From contig NZ_CP038439.1 of NCBI RefSeq assembly GCF_004683865.2, forward strand, positions 169,501-233,500: DNA of 64,000 nt, read 5' to 3'. Under the pieces are notes generated by a model. The model was not told where the DNA came from and did not search any database. It saw nothing but the letters and a program-made list of their open reading frames with translations. The position numbers and the translations under genes were made by a program. The stretch comes from Paracoccus liaowanqingii. GTDB taxonomy: Bacteria > Pseudomonadota > Alphaproteobacteria > Rhodobacterales > Rhodobacteraceae. This document shows, in pieces, positions 26,817 through 48,280 of the stretch (its first letter is position 1; each line of letters begins with the position of its first letter).

Positions 26817-26863
26817 GGTCCAGTCTCCGATGGCCGTCACACCCGACGGCAGGATGGGTTGCC

Positions 26864-27073
26864 TGAGATGGCCGGTTTCCTGGCTTGCGGGTCAAAGCGC
26901 GGCGTCGGCCTTCCCGGGGCGGGCCCCAGTGGCATGTGGTGACGCGCGCTCTCCGCATACAGTCGCGGGGGCGGCTGAGGCTTCGGGCGCCGCGATTGGG
27001 TCCGCCCTTCCCCATTCCCGATGAAGCCCGACGCGGATCGCGTCTGACGGGCACCAGTCAGGCCTTCACCTAA
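26864..27073 (-). ncRNA. Cobalamin riboswitch upstream of cbiM-cobF
   Basis: Read on the minus strand: GGTGAAGGCCTGACTGGTGC, then AGCCGCCCCCGCGACTGTAT, CCACTGGG, GGGAAGGCCG, and GACCCGCAAGCCAGGAAACC GGCC. These are the ordered conserved blocks of the AdoCbl aptamer including the B12 box. It lies between cobB (stop at 27112) and cbiM, so it governs cbiM-cobF and should shut them off when B12 is plentiful. Confidence 0.93.
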
Positions 27074-39331: not shown

Positions 39332-39459
39332 CACGGCTTTCCTTCGGTCTCGGGCCTTCGGTCACGGGGCGGGACAGGGGGAGGCCGAAAGGGGAATGGC
39401 ACGGGTCATCCGGCCATCGCCCTGCCGGTTGCGAAACACCCCGTTCGCCCGTCATCACT

Positions 39460-39662
39460 GCGTGCTGGCAGGTCTCCCGGCTTGCGGATCCTGGGGCCTG
39501 GCCCCAACGGTCGTCCCACCTTCCCGGCCCCGGGGGCCAGTGGATCGGGCGACCTTTCCGGTCACGGTCGCGGGGGCGGCTGCGCTTGGACGGGGGATCC
39601 CGGCCTGTCGCATTCCCTCTTCGCCTGCCATAAGGCAGGAACCAACACGCGCCTACCAAAAG
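39460..39662 (-). ncRNA. Cobalamin riboswitch upstream of DUF1636-cobW-cobN operon
   Basis: Read on the minus strand: TTGGTTCCTGCC, GAAGAGGGAAT, GCCGCCCCCGCGACCGTGAC, CCACTGGCCCC, GGGAAGGTGGGACGACC and ATCCGCAAGCCGGGAGACC TGCC. These are the AdoCbl aptamer blocks in order. It ends about 130 bp before the DUF1636 gene. The remaining gap to cobO (39663-39702) holds the presumed divergent promoters. It should repress the seven-gene leftward operon when B12 is present. Confidence 0.93.
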
Positions 39663-41322: not shown

Positions 41323-42651
41323 GTGTCGAACCGCCTGCCCTTGGGCGACAGCCCCTCCGGCGGGCTGGTCGTCGCGCTGGAGGATGCGCTGCGCAGCTCG
41401 GGCGGGGTCTGGGTCGGCTTCTCGGGCCAGACCGAGGACGATCCGTCGGACGACCTGCAGGACCATCCCGGCGCGGCCTTCCAGCGCCTGTCCTTCGATC
41501 TGACCCCGCAGGATCACGAGGAATACTATCTGGGCTATTCCAACTCGATCCTCTGGCCGCTGTGCCACGGGCGGCCCAACCTGATGCGGATCAAGCCGGA
41601 ATATCTGGACGGCTATGCCCGGGTGAACGCACGGATCGCCCGGATGCTGGTGCCGCATCTGCGCCCCGGCGACCGGATCTGGGTGCAGGACTATCACCTC
41701 TTCCCGCTGGCGATGGAGCTGCGCGCGCTTGGCGTCACCGCGCCCATCGGGCATTTCCTGCACATCCCCTTTCCCGGCCCCGCCGATTGCGGCGCGCTGC
41801 CCAACCCGGCCGAGCTGTTCGACTGGCTGTCCCATTACGATCTGGTCGGGTTCCAGACCGAGCGTGACCTGGGCGCCTTCGCCGAAAGCGCGCGGCAGCT
41901 GGCGGACGGGGACCAGATCTCGGACCAGCTGTTCCGGCTGTCGGGCCGCCGGGTGCGCACGCAGGTCTTTCCCATCGGCATCGACACCGCCGCCTTCATG
42001 GCCGAGGCCGCCGAGGCCCCCGACAGCGACCGCATGCGCAGCCTGACCCGCGCGCAGATGATGATCGGCGTGGACCGGCTGGACTATTCCAAGGGCATCC
42101 CGCAGCGCTTCCGCGCCTATCAGCTGCTGCTGGAGAAGATCCCGGACCTGCACGAGAAGATCTCGTTTTTGCAGATCGCCCCGCCCACGCGCGGCGAGGT
42201 CGACGCCTATCAGGACATCCGCGAAGAAACCGAGCATCTGGCCGGGCGGATCAACGGGCAGTTCGCCACGCTGAACTGGACGCCCATCCGCTTCATCCAC
42301 CGGCCCTTCCCGCGCAACGAGCTGGCGGGTCTCTACCGGCAGGCGCGGATCGGGCTGGTCACGCCCTTGGCCGACGGCATGAACCTGGTCGCCAAGGAAT
42401 ATGTCGCGGCCCAGAATGCCGAGGATCCCGGCGTGCTGATCCTGTCGCGCTTTGCGGGCGCCGCCGAGACGATGACCGAGGCGCTGATCATCAATCCCCA
42501 CGATCCGCACGATCTGGCCGTGGCCATGGCGCAGGCCATGCGCATGTCGCGCTCGGAACGTCAGGACCGCCATGCCGCCCTGCTGGAGGGCGTGGTGACC
42601 CATGACATCGCGTGGTGGTCGCGGACCTATCTGGCCGCCTTGGGCGACTGA
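41323..42651 (+). CDS. otsA: Trehalose-6-phosphate synthase, 5' end probably frameshifted
   Basis: A GT20 enzyme making trehalose-6-P from UDP-glucose and glucose-6-P. Conserved segments are WVGFSGQTEDDP, the YCNxxLWP-like GYSNSILWPLCHGRP, WVQDYHLFPLAMELR, VDRLDYSKGIPQRFRAY and GMNLVAKEYVAAQ. The GTG at 41323 starts inside the first beta strand. In-frame codons just upstream encode RLIVVSNRLP, the family's N-terminal motif, but no start codon exists there. ATG 41186, with GAGGAG before it, lies one base out of frame and would add about 46 residues. A missing base between 41186 and 41314 is the best explanation. Confidence 0.88.
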   Translation: MSNRLPLGDSPSGGLVVALEDALRSSGGVWVGFSGQTEDDPSDDLQDHPGAAFQRLSFDLTPQDHEEYYLGYSNSILWPLCHGRPNLMRIKPEYLDGYARVNARIARMLVPHLRPGDRIWVQDYHLFPLAMELRALGVTAPIGHFLHIPFPGPADCGALPNPAELFDWLSHYDLVGFQTERDLGAFAESARQLADGDQISDQLFRLSGRRVRTQVFPIGIDTAAFMAEAAEAPDSDRMRSLTRAQMMIGVDRLDYSKGIPQRFRAYQLLLEKIPDLHEKISFLQIAPPTRGEVDAYQDIREETEHLAGRINGQFATLNWTPIRFIHRPFPRNELAGLYRQARIGLVTPLADGMNLVAKEYVAAQNAEDPGVLILSRFAGAAETMTEALIINPHDPHDLAVAMAQAMRMSRSERQDRHAALLEGVVTHDIAWWSRTYLAALGD

Positions 42652-42831
42652 TCCCGAGGCCGCCGAATCACTCTGGTCGCGGGATGCGTGATCGGAGTGC
42701 CCAATTCCTGGGCATGACCCCTGATTTGCGCCTGCGGCATCGGCAGATGCGGGCGCCGGTGCCGCAGTGCGGCATCGACCGATGACAGGGCGGGGGGCAT
42801 GGCGCATGATGAAGCAGTGAAGCCCATGCTT

Positions 42832-42924
42832 CGTGGCGTCCTCCTCCGGTCCGGCCACGGACCTTCCGGAAAGCCGCCGGGTCTGCCGCATCCTCCTCCC
42901 TGCGGTCAGACCCGGCGGTCTTTT
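42832..42924 (+). ncRNA. Two-hairpin sRNA with anti-Shine-Dalgarno loops (cuckoo/CcsR-like)
   Basis: Hairpin 1 (42832-42859) has stem CGTGGC/GCCACG with a 16-nt loop containing CCTCCTCCGG. Hairpin 2 (42874-42918) has a 12-bp stem CCGCCGGGTCTG/CAGACCCGGCGG and an inner stem CCGCA/TGCGG closing the loop TCCTCCTCCC. A T-rich tail (TCTTTTCG) follows and makes hairpin 2 a Rho-independent terminator. Two hairpins displaying CCUCCUCC in their loops are the definition of the alphaproteobacterial cuckoo/CcsR/ar14 sRNAs. It sits between otsA and the convergent aroQ. The 5' end is not determined and could lie further upstream. Confidence 0.85.
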
Positions 42925-42940
42925 CGTTGATGTGTCGGGA

Positions 42941-43369
42941 TCAGCCGATCAGCGTCGCGACATGGCGCAGCGCGGCGGCATAGCCCTGCAGGCCCAACCC
43001 CGCGATCACCCCGTCCGCCCGCATCGACACATAGGAATGGTGCCGGAACGCCTCGCGTTTGTGGACCTGGCTGATATGCACCTCGATCACCGGGCCGTCG
43101 AAGGCGTTCAGCGCATCCAGCACCGCGACCGAGGTATGGGTCAGCGCAGCGGGGTTGATGACGATGGCCGCCGCCTCGTCCCGGGCCTCGTGGATCCAGT
43201 CGACGATCTGGCCCTCCCAGTTCGATTGCAGGAAGCGGATGTCATGGGGCGCGGCGGCGGCGCGGCACATCGCTTCCAGATCGGCCAGCGTCTCGGACCC
43301 GTAGATCTCGGGCTGGCGCTTGCCCAGCAGGTTCAGGTTGGGACCGTTCAGGACATGGATCAGCGGCAT
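42941..43369 (-). CDS. aroQ: 3-dehydroquinate dehydratase, type II
   Basis: A 142-residue dodecameric enzyme of the shikimate pathway. It starts [20 protein letters not shown] with the flexible active-site lid and carries [17 protein letters not shown] and the [19 protein letters not shown] segment with the catalytic histidine. Length is standard. It is convergent with the sRNA, whose terminator ends about 20 bp before the aroQ stop. Confidence 0.95.
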
Positions 43370-46621: not shown

Positions 46622-48124
46622 ATGACGGGACTTCATCACGTGACGGCCATCACGCGCGACGTGCAGGCCAATGTCGATTTCTGGATGGGCTTTCTGGGCC
46701 TGTCGCTGGTCAAGCAGACGGCGGGGTTAGAGGATGCCCGCCAGCTGCACCTGTTCTATGGCGATCCGCAGGGCAACCCCGGATCGCTGGTCAGCTTCCT
46801 CGTCTGGCAGGACGGCGCGCCGGGCCGCACCGGCCACGGCCAGGTGGCCGAGATCGCGCTGGCCATCCCGCGCGCCCGGATCGGTGACTGGCTGACCCGC
46901 GCCATGCAGCAGGGCGTGCCGGTCGAGGGGCCAAGCCGCGAATTCGGCGCCCCGGTGCTGCGTCTGAAGGATCCCGACGGGATCATCGTCAAGCTGGTGG
47001 GCACCGACGCGCCGGACGCGGGCTGGCCCGCGGCCCCCGCCCGGATGCAGGGCGTCACCCTGTGGTCCGAGGACGCGCCCGCGACGGCGGCCTTCCTGGC
47101 GCCCTTCGGCTACCGCCCCGGCGGGGTCGAGGATGGCGTGACGCGGCTGGTCTCGGACCACGACGCAATCGACATCCGCCATGCGCGGGGCTTCGTGCCC
47201 GGCATTCCCGGCACTGGGGTGATCGACCATGTCGCCCTGCGCGTCCCGGACGTGGCGGCGATCAGGGCCCACGCCGCCCGGCTGTCGGACGCGACCGAGG
47301 TGACGGTCCACGACCGGCTGTACTTCACCTCGCTCTATGTCCGCGATCCGGCGGGCATCCTGATCGAACTGGCGACCGACGGCCCCGGCATGGCCGTGGA
47401 TGAGCCCGCCGAAGCCTTGGGCCGGGCCCTGAAGATCCCGCCCCATGTGACCGACGATACCGACCTTCGGCTGCACCTGCCGCAATTCGCCCGACCGGGA
47501 GAGGAAAGACGACCCATGCGCGACCTGCCCTTCATCCACCGCATCCATGCCCCGGCGGATGCCGACGGATCGACCCTGCTGCTGCTGCACGGTACCGGCG
47601 GGTCCGAGACGGACCTGATGCCGCTGGCGCATGGCATCGCGCCGCGCGCGACGTTGCTGGGCCTGCGCGGCCGGTCGACGGAGGAGGGATCGGCGCGGTT
47701 CTTCCGCCGCCTGTCGATGACGCGCTTCGACCAGGACGACATCCGGTCCGAGGCCGCGGCCTTCGCCGCCTTCTGGACAGGGGCCCTGGCAGCCTATGAC
47801 CTGGACCCCGCCCGGCTGACGGTGCTGGGCTATTCCAACGGCGCGAATTTCGCGGCGGCGGTGATGGCGCTGCATCCGGGGCTGATCGCGCGGGCGATCC
47901 TGATGCGGCCCATGCTGGTCCTCGATCCGGTGCCAGAGGCCGATCTGTCGGGGGTGCGGGTCCTGACCCTGCAGGGGGCGCAGGATCCCTATGGCCCCCA
48001 TGCGCCGGCGCTGAACGACTGGCTGGCGGCCTCGGGCGCCGATCTGGATGCCCGGGTGATGCCCACCGGGCACCAGCTGTCCCAGGACGATCCGCGCGCC
48101 GCCAAGACGTGGCTGTCGGCATGA
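46622..48124 (+). CDS. MhqO-type ring-cleaving dioxygenase fused to an MhqD-type hydrolase
   Basis: A 500-residue fusion. Residues 1-285 are two VOC/glyoxalase modules of the MhqO type, with metal ligands in LHHVTAI, VIDHVALRVPD and [15 protein letters not shown]. Residues from about 300 form an alpha/beta hydrolase: LLLLHGTGGSETDLMPLAHG, nucleophile Ser in VLGYSNGANFAAAV, catalytic Asp in LQGAQDPYGP and His in PTGHQLSQDD. In Bacillus these activities are separate genes (mhqO, mhqD) for quinone detoxification. The Met RPMRDLPF junction suggests an ancestral start codon for the second part. It is divergent from the pirin gene. Confidence 0.85.
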   Translation: MTGLHHVTAITRDVQANVDFWMGFLGLSLVKQTAGLEDARQLHLFYGDPQGNPGSLVSFLVWQDGAPGRTGHGQVAEIALAIPRARIGDWLTRAMQQGVPVEGPSREFGAPVLRLKDPDGIIVKLVGTDAPDAGWPAAPARMQGVTLWSEDAPATAAFLAPFGYRPGGVEDGVTRLVSDHDAIDIRHARGFVPGIPGTGVIDHVALRVPDVAAIRAHAARLSDATEVTVHDRLYFTSLYVRDPAGILIELATDGPGMAVDEPAEALGRALKIPPHVTDDTDLRLHLPQFARPGEERRPMRDLPFIHRIHAPADADGSTLLLLHGTGGSETDLMPLAHGIAPRATLLGLRGRSTEEGSARFFRRLSMTRFDQDDIRSEAAAFAAFWTGALAAYDLDPARLTVLGYSNGANFAAAVMALHPGLIARAILMRPMLVLDPVPEADLSGVRVLTLQGAQDPYGPHAPALNDWLAASGADLDARVMPTGHQLSQDDPRAAKTWLSA

Positions 48125-48129
48125 AAAGA

Positions 48130-48158
48130 CCCCGCCCCCGGAAGGACCGGAGGCGGGG
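48130..48158 (+). terminator. Terminator after the dioxygenase-hydrolase fusion
   Basis: CCCCGCC...GGCGGGG arms with an inner CCGG/CCGG pairing and a loop of AAGGA form a strong hairpin 5 bp after the stop codon. No T-tract follows on the plus strand. On the minus strand a run of CTTTTCAT follows, so it may work for the convergent reductase transcript as well. Confidence 0.6.
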
Positions 48159-48280
48159 CATACTCGGGGACTGGTTACGGAATCCGAACCCGGGAAACGC
48201 CCCTCCGGTTCCTGCACGGTTCGGTGAGGGACGGCCACACTTTGTCGTGTGATTCCAACGCGGCAGTCGCGTCCCCGTGA

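Follow-up and report, generated by a model that had tools for sequence, protein, structure and literature searches.

The otsA-aroQ intergenic region and its predicted RNA

The window analysed here is a 64,000-nucleotide stretch of Paracoccus liaowanqingii contig NZ_CP038439.1. In it, otsA, the gene for trehalose-6-phosphate synthase (41323-42651, + strand; best match TIGR02400, 510.6 bits, under its cut-off of 564.85), converges with aroQ, the gene for a type II 3-dehydroquinate dehydratase (42941-43369, - strand; PF01220 and TIGR01088, the latter with 181 bits, above its cut-off of 169.85). The genome has two aroQ-type genes (G000:C8:110278-110697 and G000:C1:212444-212869), the C8 copy sharing 55% identity with the aroQ of the window. 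Approximately 165 nt past the otsA stop and on the same strand lies a predicted small RNA (sRNA) of about 109 nt (42817-42925, + strand; C1:212317-212425 in the genome), whose ends are deduced rather than mapped: the 5′ end was placed near 42817 because of the position of a -10-like site, and the 3′ end was taken from the tail that follows the last hairpin.

From 5′ to 3′ the element consists of a plain hairpin A, a linker with CCUCCUCC, a plain hairpin B, and a terminator-like hairpin C that carries CCUCCUCCC, an anti-Shine-Dalgarno (aSD) motif, in its loop. Pair probabilities, computed with three choices of RNA ends, are 0.64-0.91 for hairpin A (GAAGC CCAT GCTTC, 42819-42832), 0.87-0.99 for hairpin B (GGTCC GGCCAC GGACC, 42848-42863), and 0.96-1.0 for hairpin C (42874-42918, or 42874-42926 with the tail TCTTTTCG directly after it), all on the + strand. 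The first motif, aSD1 (CCTCCTCC, 42840-42847, +), lies in the single-stranded linker with an unpaired probability of 0.60-0.98, and the second, aSD2 (CCTCCTCCC, 42892-42900, +), is fully unpaired (probability 1.0) in the loop of the very stable hairpin C. Two + strand copies of CCTCCTCC are therefore found 52 bases apart, the second at 42892-42899, where position 42900 is also C and extends the motif to CCTCCTCCC; aSD1 has eight of these nine letters. The folding energy of the region is -60.8 kcal/mol compared with -39.4 kcal/mol in dinucleotide shuffles, which is 6.6 SD lower, and none of 200 shuffles was equally stable. A terminator scan that takes only loops of 3-8, so that hairpin C is beyond its reach, returned one site (42908-42921), which overlaps the 3′ arm of this hairpin.

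The 8-mer CCTCCTCC alone is not unusual: the window has 6 copies compared with 4.4 expected (30 of 100 shuffles have as many), 275 copies occur genome-wide, and we calculate that chance would give roughly half a pair per genome lying on one strand and no more than 60 nt apart. The case is therefore built on structure, terminator, and conservation. A preliminary description of this DNA, made from its letters, had placed an aSD sRNA candidate on the + strand of the otsA-aroQ gap, and the terminator-like hairpin of its own and the motif kept in relatives bear this out. Its span (42832-42924) marked the right locus, while its start came too late, because the favoured fold has hairpin A immediately upstream and a start at 42832 cuts off both this hairpin and the promoter-like sequence. 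The same description displayed both motifs in hairpin loops and ended the second hairpin in a T-rich terminator. The second motif and the terminator stand, as hairpin C is followed by TCTTTTCG, whereas the first motif sits in the linker, and the hairpin that had been drawn around it (CGTGGC, 42832-42837, with GCCACG, 42854-42859) was ruled out by a pair probability of 0.00-0.10.

Conservation and relatives of the element

By DNA similarity, the element was detected in 15 of 101 genomes of the genus, own genome counted, before any motif was used to select loci. A search with OtsA then gave 59 otsA places in 52 of the 101 genomes, and the motif pair is present downstream of otsA at 18 of them and absent at 41. 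Wherever aroQ follows otsA by no more than 1.5 kb, which is the case at 15 places, the element is present, and in three further genomes (G067, G098, and G068) it is present with no aroQ found within 1.5 kb. The paired motifs are genuine and conserved. Loop conservation in relatives, on which the preliminary description had partly staked its proposal, was found at aSD2, where CCUCCUCCC/CCTCCTCCC is kept in 17 of the 18 otsA-linked elements. At aSD1, TCCTCC is kept in 16/18 and the full 8-mer in 9/18, figures that are partly circular because these 18 elements were recognised by a CCTCC within 420 bases downstream of otsA.

The stems vary while preserving their pairing. In a MAFFT alignment of 17 otsA-linked sequences (G098, near-identical to G067, being omitted), 12 of 22 pairs are altered on both sides compared with 6.6 (sd 1.6) in shuffles, of which only 1 in 500 was as high, and sliding the pairing partners lowers the share of paired cells from 84% to 47% or less. 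A wider set of 41 matches from several classes, 40 of them distinct, has two-sided changes in 18 of 22 pairs (13.1 in shuffles) and in 134 cells (46.4 in shuffles), although this alignment was fitted to the covariance model and leans towards it. Covariation in hairpin C is observed in both alignments, and in hairpin B four of five pairs are altered on both sides with 71.8% of cells paired among the 17 sequences, and five of five with 72.3% among the 40. At the position of hairpin A, inspection of relatives revealed other pairing stems; a stem finder was non-discriminating (27/41 elements and 1818/3836 control segments), so that the support for hairpin A consists of its fold probability and this inspection.

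Two covariance models, R1 and R2, derive from the otsA-linked elements and from sequences that matched them. R1 matches the window at 42833-42924 with 98.1 bits, the sequence of the window itself being part of the model. A further, weak match on the - strand (48124-48200, 18.1 bits, E 0.046) is probably due to chance. Other structured RNAs on the - strand of the window are two cobalamin riboswitches (39450-39661 and 26853-27073; 93.3 and 88.4 bits) and a single glycine riboswitch aptamer (2815-2904, 56.8 bits). Beyond the window, the model search identified four more elements in the same genome, on contigs C2, C7, C8, and C9 (13.5 to 260 kb). Elements are also carried by named Paracoccus plasmids, namely pYEE6 of P. 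yeei and pCP157_09, pCP157_10, and unnamed3 of P. marcusii (52.1, 52.1, 64.3, and 40.4 bits, respectively; L227 209-298, L228 2965-3054, L309 6092-6187, and L310 5064-5151); no listed feature lies beneath the BLAST matches on these plasmids in a gene table that is itself incomplete. The plasmid type seems, by inspection, to have its first motif inside a hairpin loop. Querying PLSDB with the C7 copy returned no match. Genes for organic hydroperoxide resistance, MarR, or BLUF proteins were observed on some of the element-bearing plasmids and near the element at G001:C125. Further homes are next to dxs/clpB and next to cytochrome b561/tetrapyrrole methylase genes (named by Pfam for one locus each and by reading for the rest).

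In total, R1 at E 0.01 matches 56 of the 101 genus genomes, R2 at E 0.001 matches 54, and R1 at E 0.001 matches 28 of 248 family genomes, own genome included, but these raw counts mix classes because the models also catch leaders between nasS and nrtA as well as CcsR arrays. Among 27 family loci (L198-L224), 17 are near a ccaF1-like gene, seven others lie upstream of an nrtA-like frame (by reading), and three (L198, L218, and L224) are unclassified. One match (G015:C68) is probably false, being located inside a reading frame of 1871 codons or more, and L192 and L195 were set apart as CcsR-type loci by reading.

Promoter-like sequence and upstream palindrome

A general sigma-70 scan placed a -35-like ATGACA (42782-42787, +) and a -10-like CATGAT (42805-42810, +) with a spacer of 17 upstream of the element, agreeing in 9 of 12 letters, as the one site in the 900 bases scanned, where 0.1 would be expected; this is a prediction from sequence. 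The pattern NTGACN-N17-CANNNT precedes 21/41 related elements, compared with 7/3836 control segments, and is missing in the other 20, a count that is post hoc, since the pattern had been noticed by eye in the same loci, and that includes class members related to one another. In the otsA class it is present at 14 of 18 loci, and all 21 matches have a spacer of 17 when 16-18 is permitted. By itself, a bare RTGAC-N18-CANNNT is near chance in the window (2 sites, 1.65 expected).

Just upstream of the -35-like site lies a palindrome, TGCCGCAGTGCGGCA (42760-42774; core CCGCAGTGCGG, 42762-42772), which resembles the operator of PhaR. In our relaxed form, CYGCN3GCRG, looked for in the stretch from 135 to 15 bases before each model match, such a palindrome precedes 33 of 52 elements and 157 of 4038 control segments and is missing from 19 of the 52 (8 of the 18 otsA-linked); it, too, was spotted by eye and then counted post hoc on the same loci, which are kin within classes. 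The relaxed form occurs in the otsA class at 10/18 loci, in Paracoccus nrtA-linked elements at 6/6, on plasmids or small contigs at 6/11, at cytochrome/cob loci at 4/6, at dxs/clpB at 2/3, and in other genera at 5/8. Stricter published forms are enriched as well: CTGCNNNGCAG (CTGCN3GCAG), the strict operator form described for Rhodobacter sphaeroides (PMC12542648), is found at 18/52 compared with 33/4038 in controls, and the form described for Bradyrhizobium diazoefficiens (PMC6201568) at 15/52 compared with 14/4038. The Sinorhizobium meliloti core, YGCRNYGCR, is found at 34/52 compared with 402/4038. The palindrome of the window is a C/G variant that fits CYGCN3GCRG and YGCRNYGCR and fits neither the strict R. 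sphaeroides form nor that of B. diazoefficiens. The bare CYGCN3GCRG occurs 35 times in the window, with 34 expected, which is near chance.

A general inverted-repeat form was considered and set aside for the PhaR form: perfect 6-bp inverted repeats lie upstream of 9/18 otsA-linked, 1/6 nrtA-linked, 2/11 plasmid or small-contig, 2/6 cytochrome/cob, and 0/3 dxs/clpB elements, compared with 200/2473 control segments. Control by PhaR is a reasonable idea because in S. meliloti PhaR represses an sRNA, MmgR, which has a putative PhaR site in its promoter (PMC12542648), and the element may possibly be PhaR-controlled. The palindrome points to PhaR, and hence to stored carbon, rather than to osmolarity. 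The preliminary description had suggested a link with osmotic stress through the neighbouring trehalose gene, a proposal with this neighbourhood as its sole basis, and the distribution of the element does not support it: 18 of 59 otsA places carry one, and relatives occur at dxs/clpB, at cytochrome b561/tetrapyrrole methylase genes, and on plasmids. Since otsA is one home among several, its presence says little in favour of an osmotic role.

Alternative explanations, proposed mode of action, and known aSD RNAs

Several other explanations of the locus have to be weighed against an independent regulatory RNA. The element could be only an intrinsic terminator, possibly bidirectional, between the convergent otsA and aroQ, with C-rich filler and without an RNA that acts in trans. 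The great stability of hairpin C, its position between convergent genes near the aroQ stop, and a weak R1 match on the reverse strand (42868-42961, 23.9 bits) would suit such a terminator, but it accounts neither for a loop motif that is kept while the stems vary nor for the additional conserved hairpin B and linker motif, the promoter pattern upstream of most otsA-linked elements, the three genomes in which the element stands with no aroQ found nearby, and the related elements on plasmids; we regard it as unlikely. Processing from the 3′ untranslated region of otsA, which would yield an otsA-coupled (osmotic) sRNA, agrees with the shared strand and the short distance to the otsA stop. Against it, 14/18 cases have the promoter pattern in the gap that separates otsA from the element, and related elements occur away from otsA; its probability is low, below that of the terminator.

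The preliminary description had assigned the element to the CcsR/cuckoo type, and a true Rhodobacter-type CcsR RNA, stress-induced through RpoHI/HII and in the same regulon as a DUF1127-linked array elsewhere in the genome, would share with it the motif, the terminator-like hairpin, the size class, and the bacterial family. The covariance search that had been proposed with the cuckoo family model gave only 13.8 bits (RF02791, gathering cut-off 65.3), the first motif lies in the linker whereas every CcsR motif is in a hairpin loop, no DUF1127 gene is next to the element (such genes are found only at C1:369651, 705658, and 1787968, while CcsR1-4 are co-transcribed with one), and the promoter pattern is of the sigma-70 type with a spacer of 17. 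The CcsR trait of CCUCCUCCC with variable stems is observed here. This explanation is unlikely, somewhat less probable than a mere terminator and above processing from otsA. The DUF1127-linked array (L121 200-1300; G000:C1:704.8-705.9 kb, - strand; a CcaF1-like gene of 75 aa followed by 16 CCTCCTCCC, together at C1:704.9-705.8 kb) has eight CcsR1 matches, in part repeating every 184 bases, and is larger than the R. sphaeroides set of four CcsR copies. Its scores reach 51.5 and 47.6 bits, and the best RF02791 score, 51.5, is itself under 65.3. The 250 bases upstream of its DUF1127 gene contain one strict CTGCN3GCAG site, and weak CcsR1 matches occur elsewhere in the genome (C1:2929634, C7:41265, and C1:90815). 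The last explanation, an antitermination leader of the ANTAR protein NasT or a relict of one, is raised by the matches of R1 and R2 between nasS and nrtA in six Paracoccus genomes and seven of other genera (names by reading), where several elements have an aSD-like terminator loop, the promoter pattern is present in 3/3 tested (L197, L180, and L182), and the palindrome precedes all six Paracoccus cases. ANTAR targets are described as hexaloops with A1 and G4 (PMC3369931); at least one such hairpin is present in 13/13 nrtA-linked elements and two or more in 10/13, compared with one in 2/18 and two in 0/18 otsA-linked elements, near the shuffled level of 7.6%. At least one is found in 3/6 cytochrome/cob and 1/3 dxs/clpB elements, none with two, and the loops of hairpins A and B in the window, CCAT and GGCCAC, are not a pair of this kind. 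Furthermore, aroQ, the next gene, is on the opposite strand, a search at E 1e-60 found no nrtA in this genome, and G064 and G066 have an otsA-linked element plus an nrtA on another contig, whose upstream region gave no hit to R2 at E 1 and lacks CCTCC over the 280 bases inspected. By the hexaloop test and these two genomes a NasT leader was rejected; the reading as a working leader is mostly refuted, and leader or relict together are very improbable. As a separate observation, CCTCCTCCC is seen by eye in the terminator loop of 6 of 10 nasS-nrtA elements (L199, L200, L201, L206, L209, L212, L213, and L348-L350), and the terminated leader might itself be an aSD RNA.

We consider it likely that the element is a stand-alone, trans-acting aSD sRNA of about 109 nt that masks translation starts in the manner of NfeR1, with repression by PhaR suggested by its upstream region. 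RNA polymerase would start at ATGACA-N17-CATGAT between otsA and aroQ and stop at hairpin C, releasing an RNA that displays one aSD motif in the linker between hairpins A and B and another in the terminator loop. These copies would pair with the purine-rich Shine-Dalgarno sequences of several mRNAs, block ribosomes, and lower translation, and PhaR bound at the operator-like site just upstream of the -35 would repress the gene until stored polyhydroxybutyrate titrates PhaR away. As for targets, GGAGGAGG-N3-9-ATG occurs at 29 places compared with 5 in a reversed control. The frames behind these places include, by reading, Dxs, three periplasmic binding proteins of transporters, and a short-chain fatty-acid transporter, and many are too short for genes; as a guess from sequence, mRNAs with GGAGGAGG ahead of their ATG are candidate targets. 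A wider proposal, that Paracoccus and its relatives possess a dispersed set of stand-alone aSD RNAs, chromosomal and plasmid-borne, with a common PhaR-operator promoter plan, is tentative. If true, a brake on translation, set by polyhydroxybutyrate status, would act on many mRNAs that have strong Shine-Dalgarno sequences, and plasmids would arrive with a copy of their own. For P. denitrificans, 167 sRNAs have been reported (PMC5107571), and a search of literature listings turned up no comparable RNA beside otsA in Paracoccus.

None of the Rfam families scores above its cut-off at the element. The ar14 family (RF02344) scores 18.4 bits (cut-off 58.8), the best weak match, Scr3202 (28.7 bits, cut-off 52), was taken as chance, and among 13 loci with related elements or leaders no family was found at E 0.1. 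Cuckoo- and ar14-type aSD RNAs are stress- or nitrogen-linked regulators, and those of the cuckoo type reportedly have two to four hairpins. In the ar14/NfeR1 plan all three hairpins carry an unpaired aSD motif, whereas of the three hairpins of the element one has a motif in its loop, the other motif lying in a linker. Because the element departs from both families on tested features, we place it with the aSD sRNAs but outside CcsR and ar14.

Among known systems, the CcsR RNA of R. sphaeroides has two stem loops with a motif in each (PMC3927594), and CcsR1-4 are processed from the ccaF1 (DUF1127) transcript, which is driven by an RpoHI/RpoHII promoter (PMC10253847, PMC8307010). The element is similar to them in its CCUCCUCCC motifs, terminator-like hairpin, length, and bacterial family, but unlike these co-transcribed and processed RNAs it is single and stand-alone, with a sigma-70-like pattern. 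The NasT leader is similar in that small hairpins precede a terminator and differs in its A1/G4 hexaloops, and the likeness to MmgR of S. meliloti, an sRNA with a PhaR-like site, is one of proposed control only. NfeR1 of Sinorhizobium and relatives is a stand-alone RNA of 123 nt with a sigma-70 promoter (spacer 17) and a conserved upstream element, present in six copies in the S. meliloti genome, with CCUCCUCCC unpaired and hypervariable stems (PMC7143759, PMC10746234). Its aSD motifs pair at the ntrB translation start, leading to silencing (PMC10746234), and, being redundant, also with the translation starts of other mRNAs (PMC10746234, PMC7143759). NfeR1 rises on salt shock and is required for survival in high salt (PMC7143759, PMC10746234), so that by analogy the element may respond to salt. 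NfeR1, which is transcribed on its own from a sigma-70 promoter and exists in several copies, is a closer working model than CcsR, since the element too is predicted to stand alone, with related copies and a sigma-70-like promoter pattern; CCUCCUCCC is unpaired in both. The two differ in layout, as NfeR1 has a motif in each of its three hairpins whereas the element carries one motif in a hairpin and the other in a linker, besides two plain hairpins, and in control, which in NfeR1 is exerted by LsrB and NtrC whereas the element has a PhaR-like site. A stand-alone Paracoccus variant that is laid out differently, occupies several genomic sites, plasmids among them, and has a PhaR-like palindrome would tie the translational brake to carbon storage.
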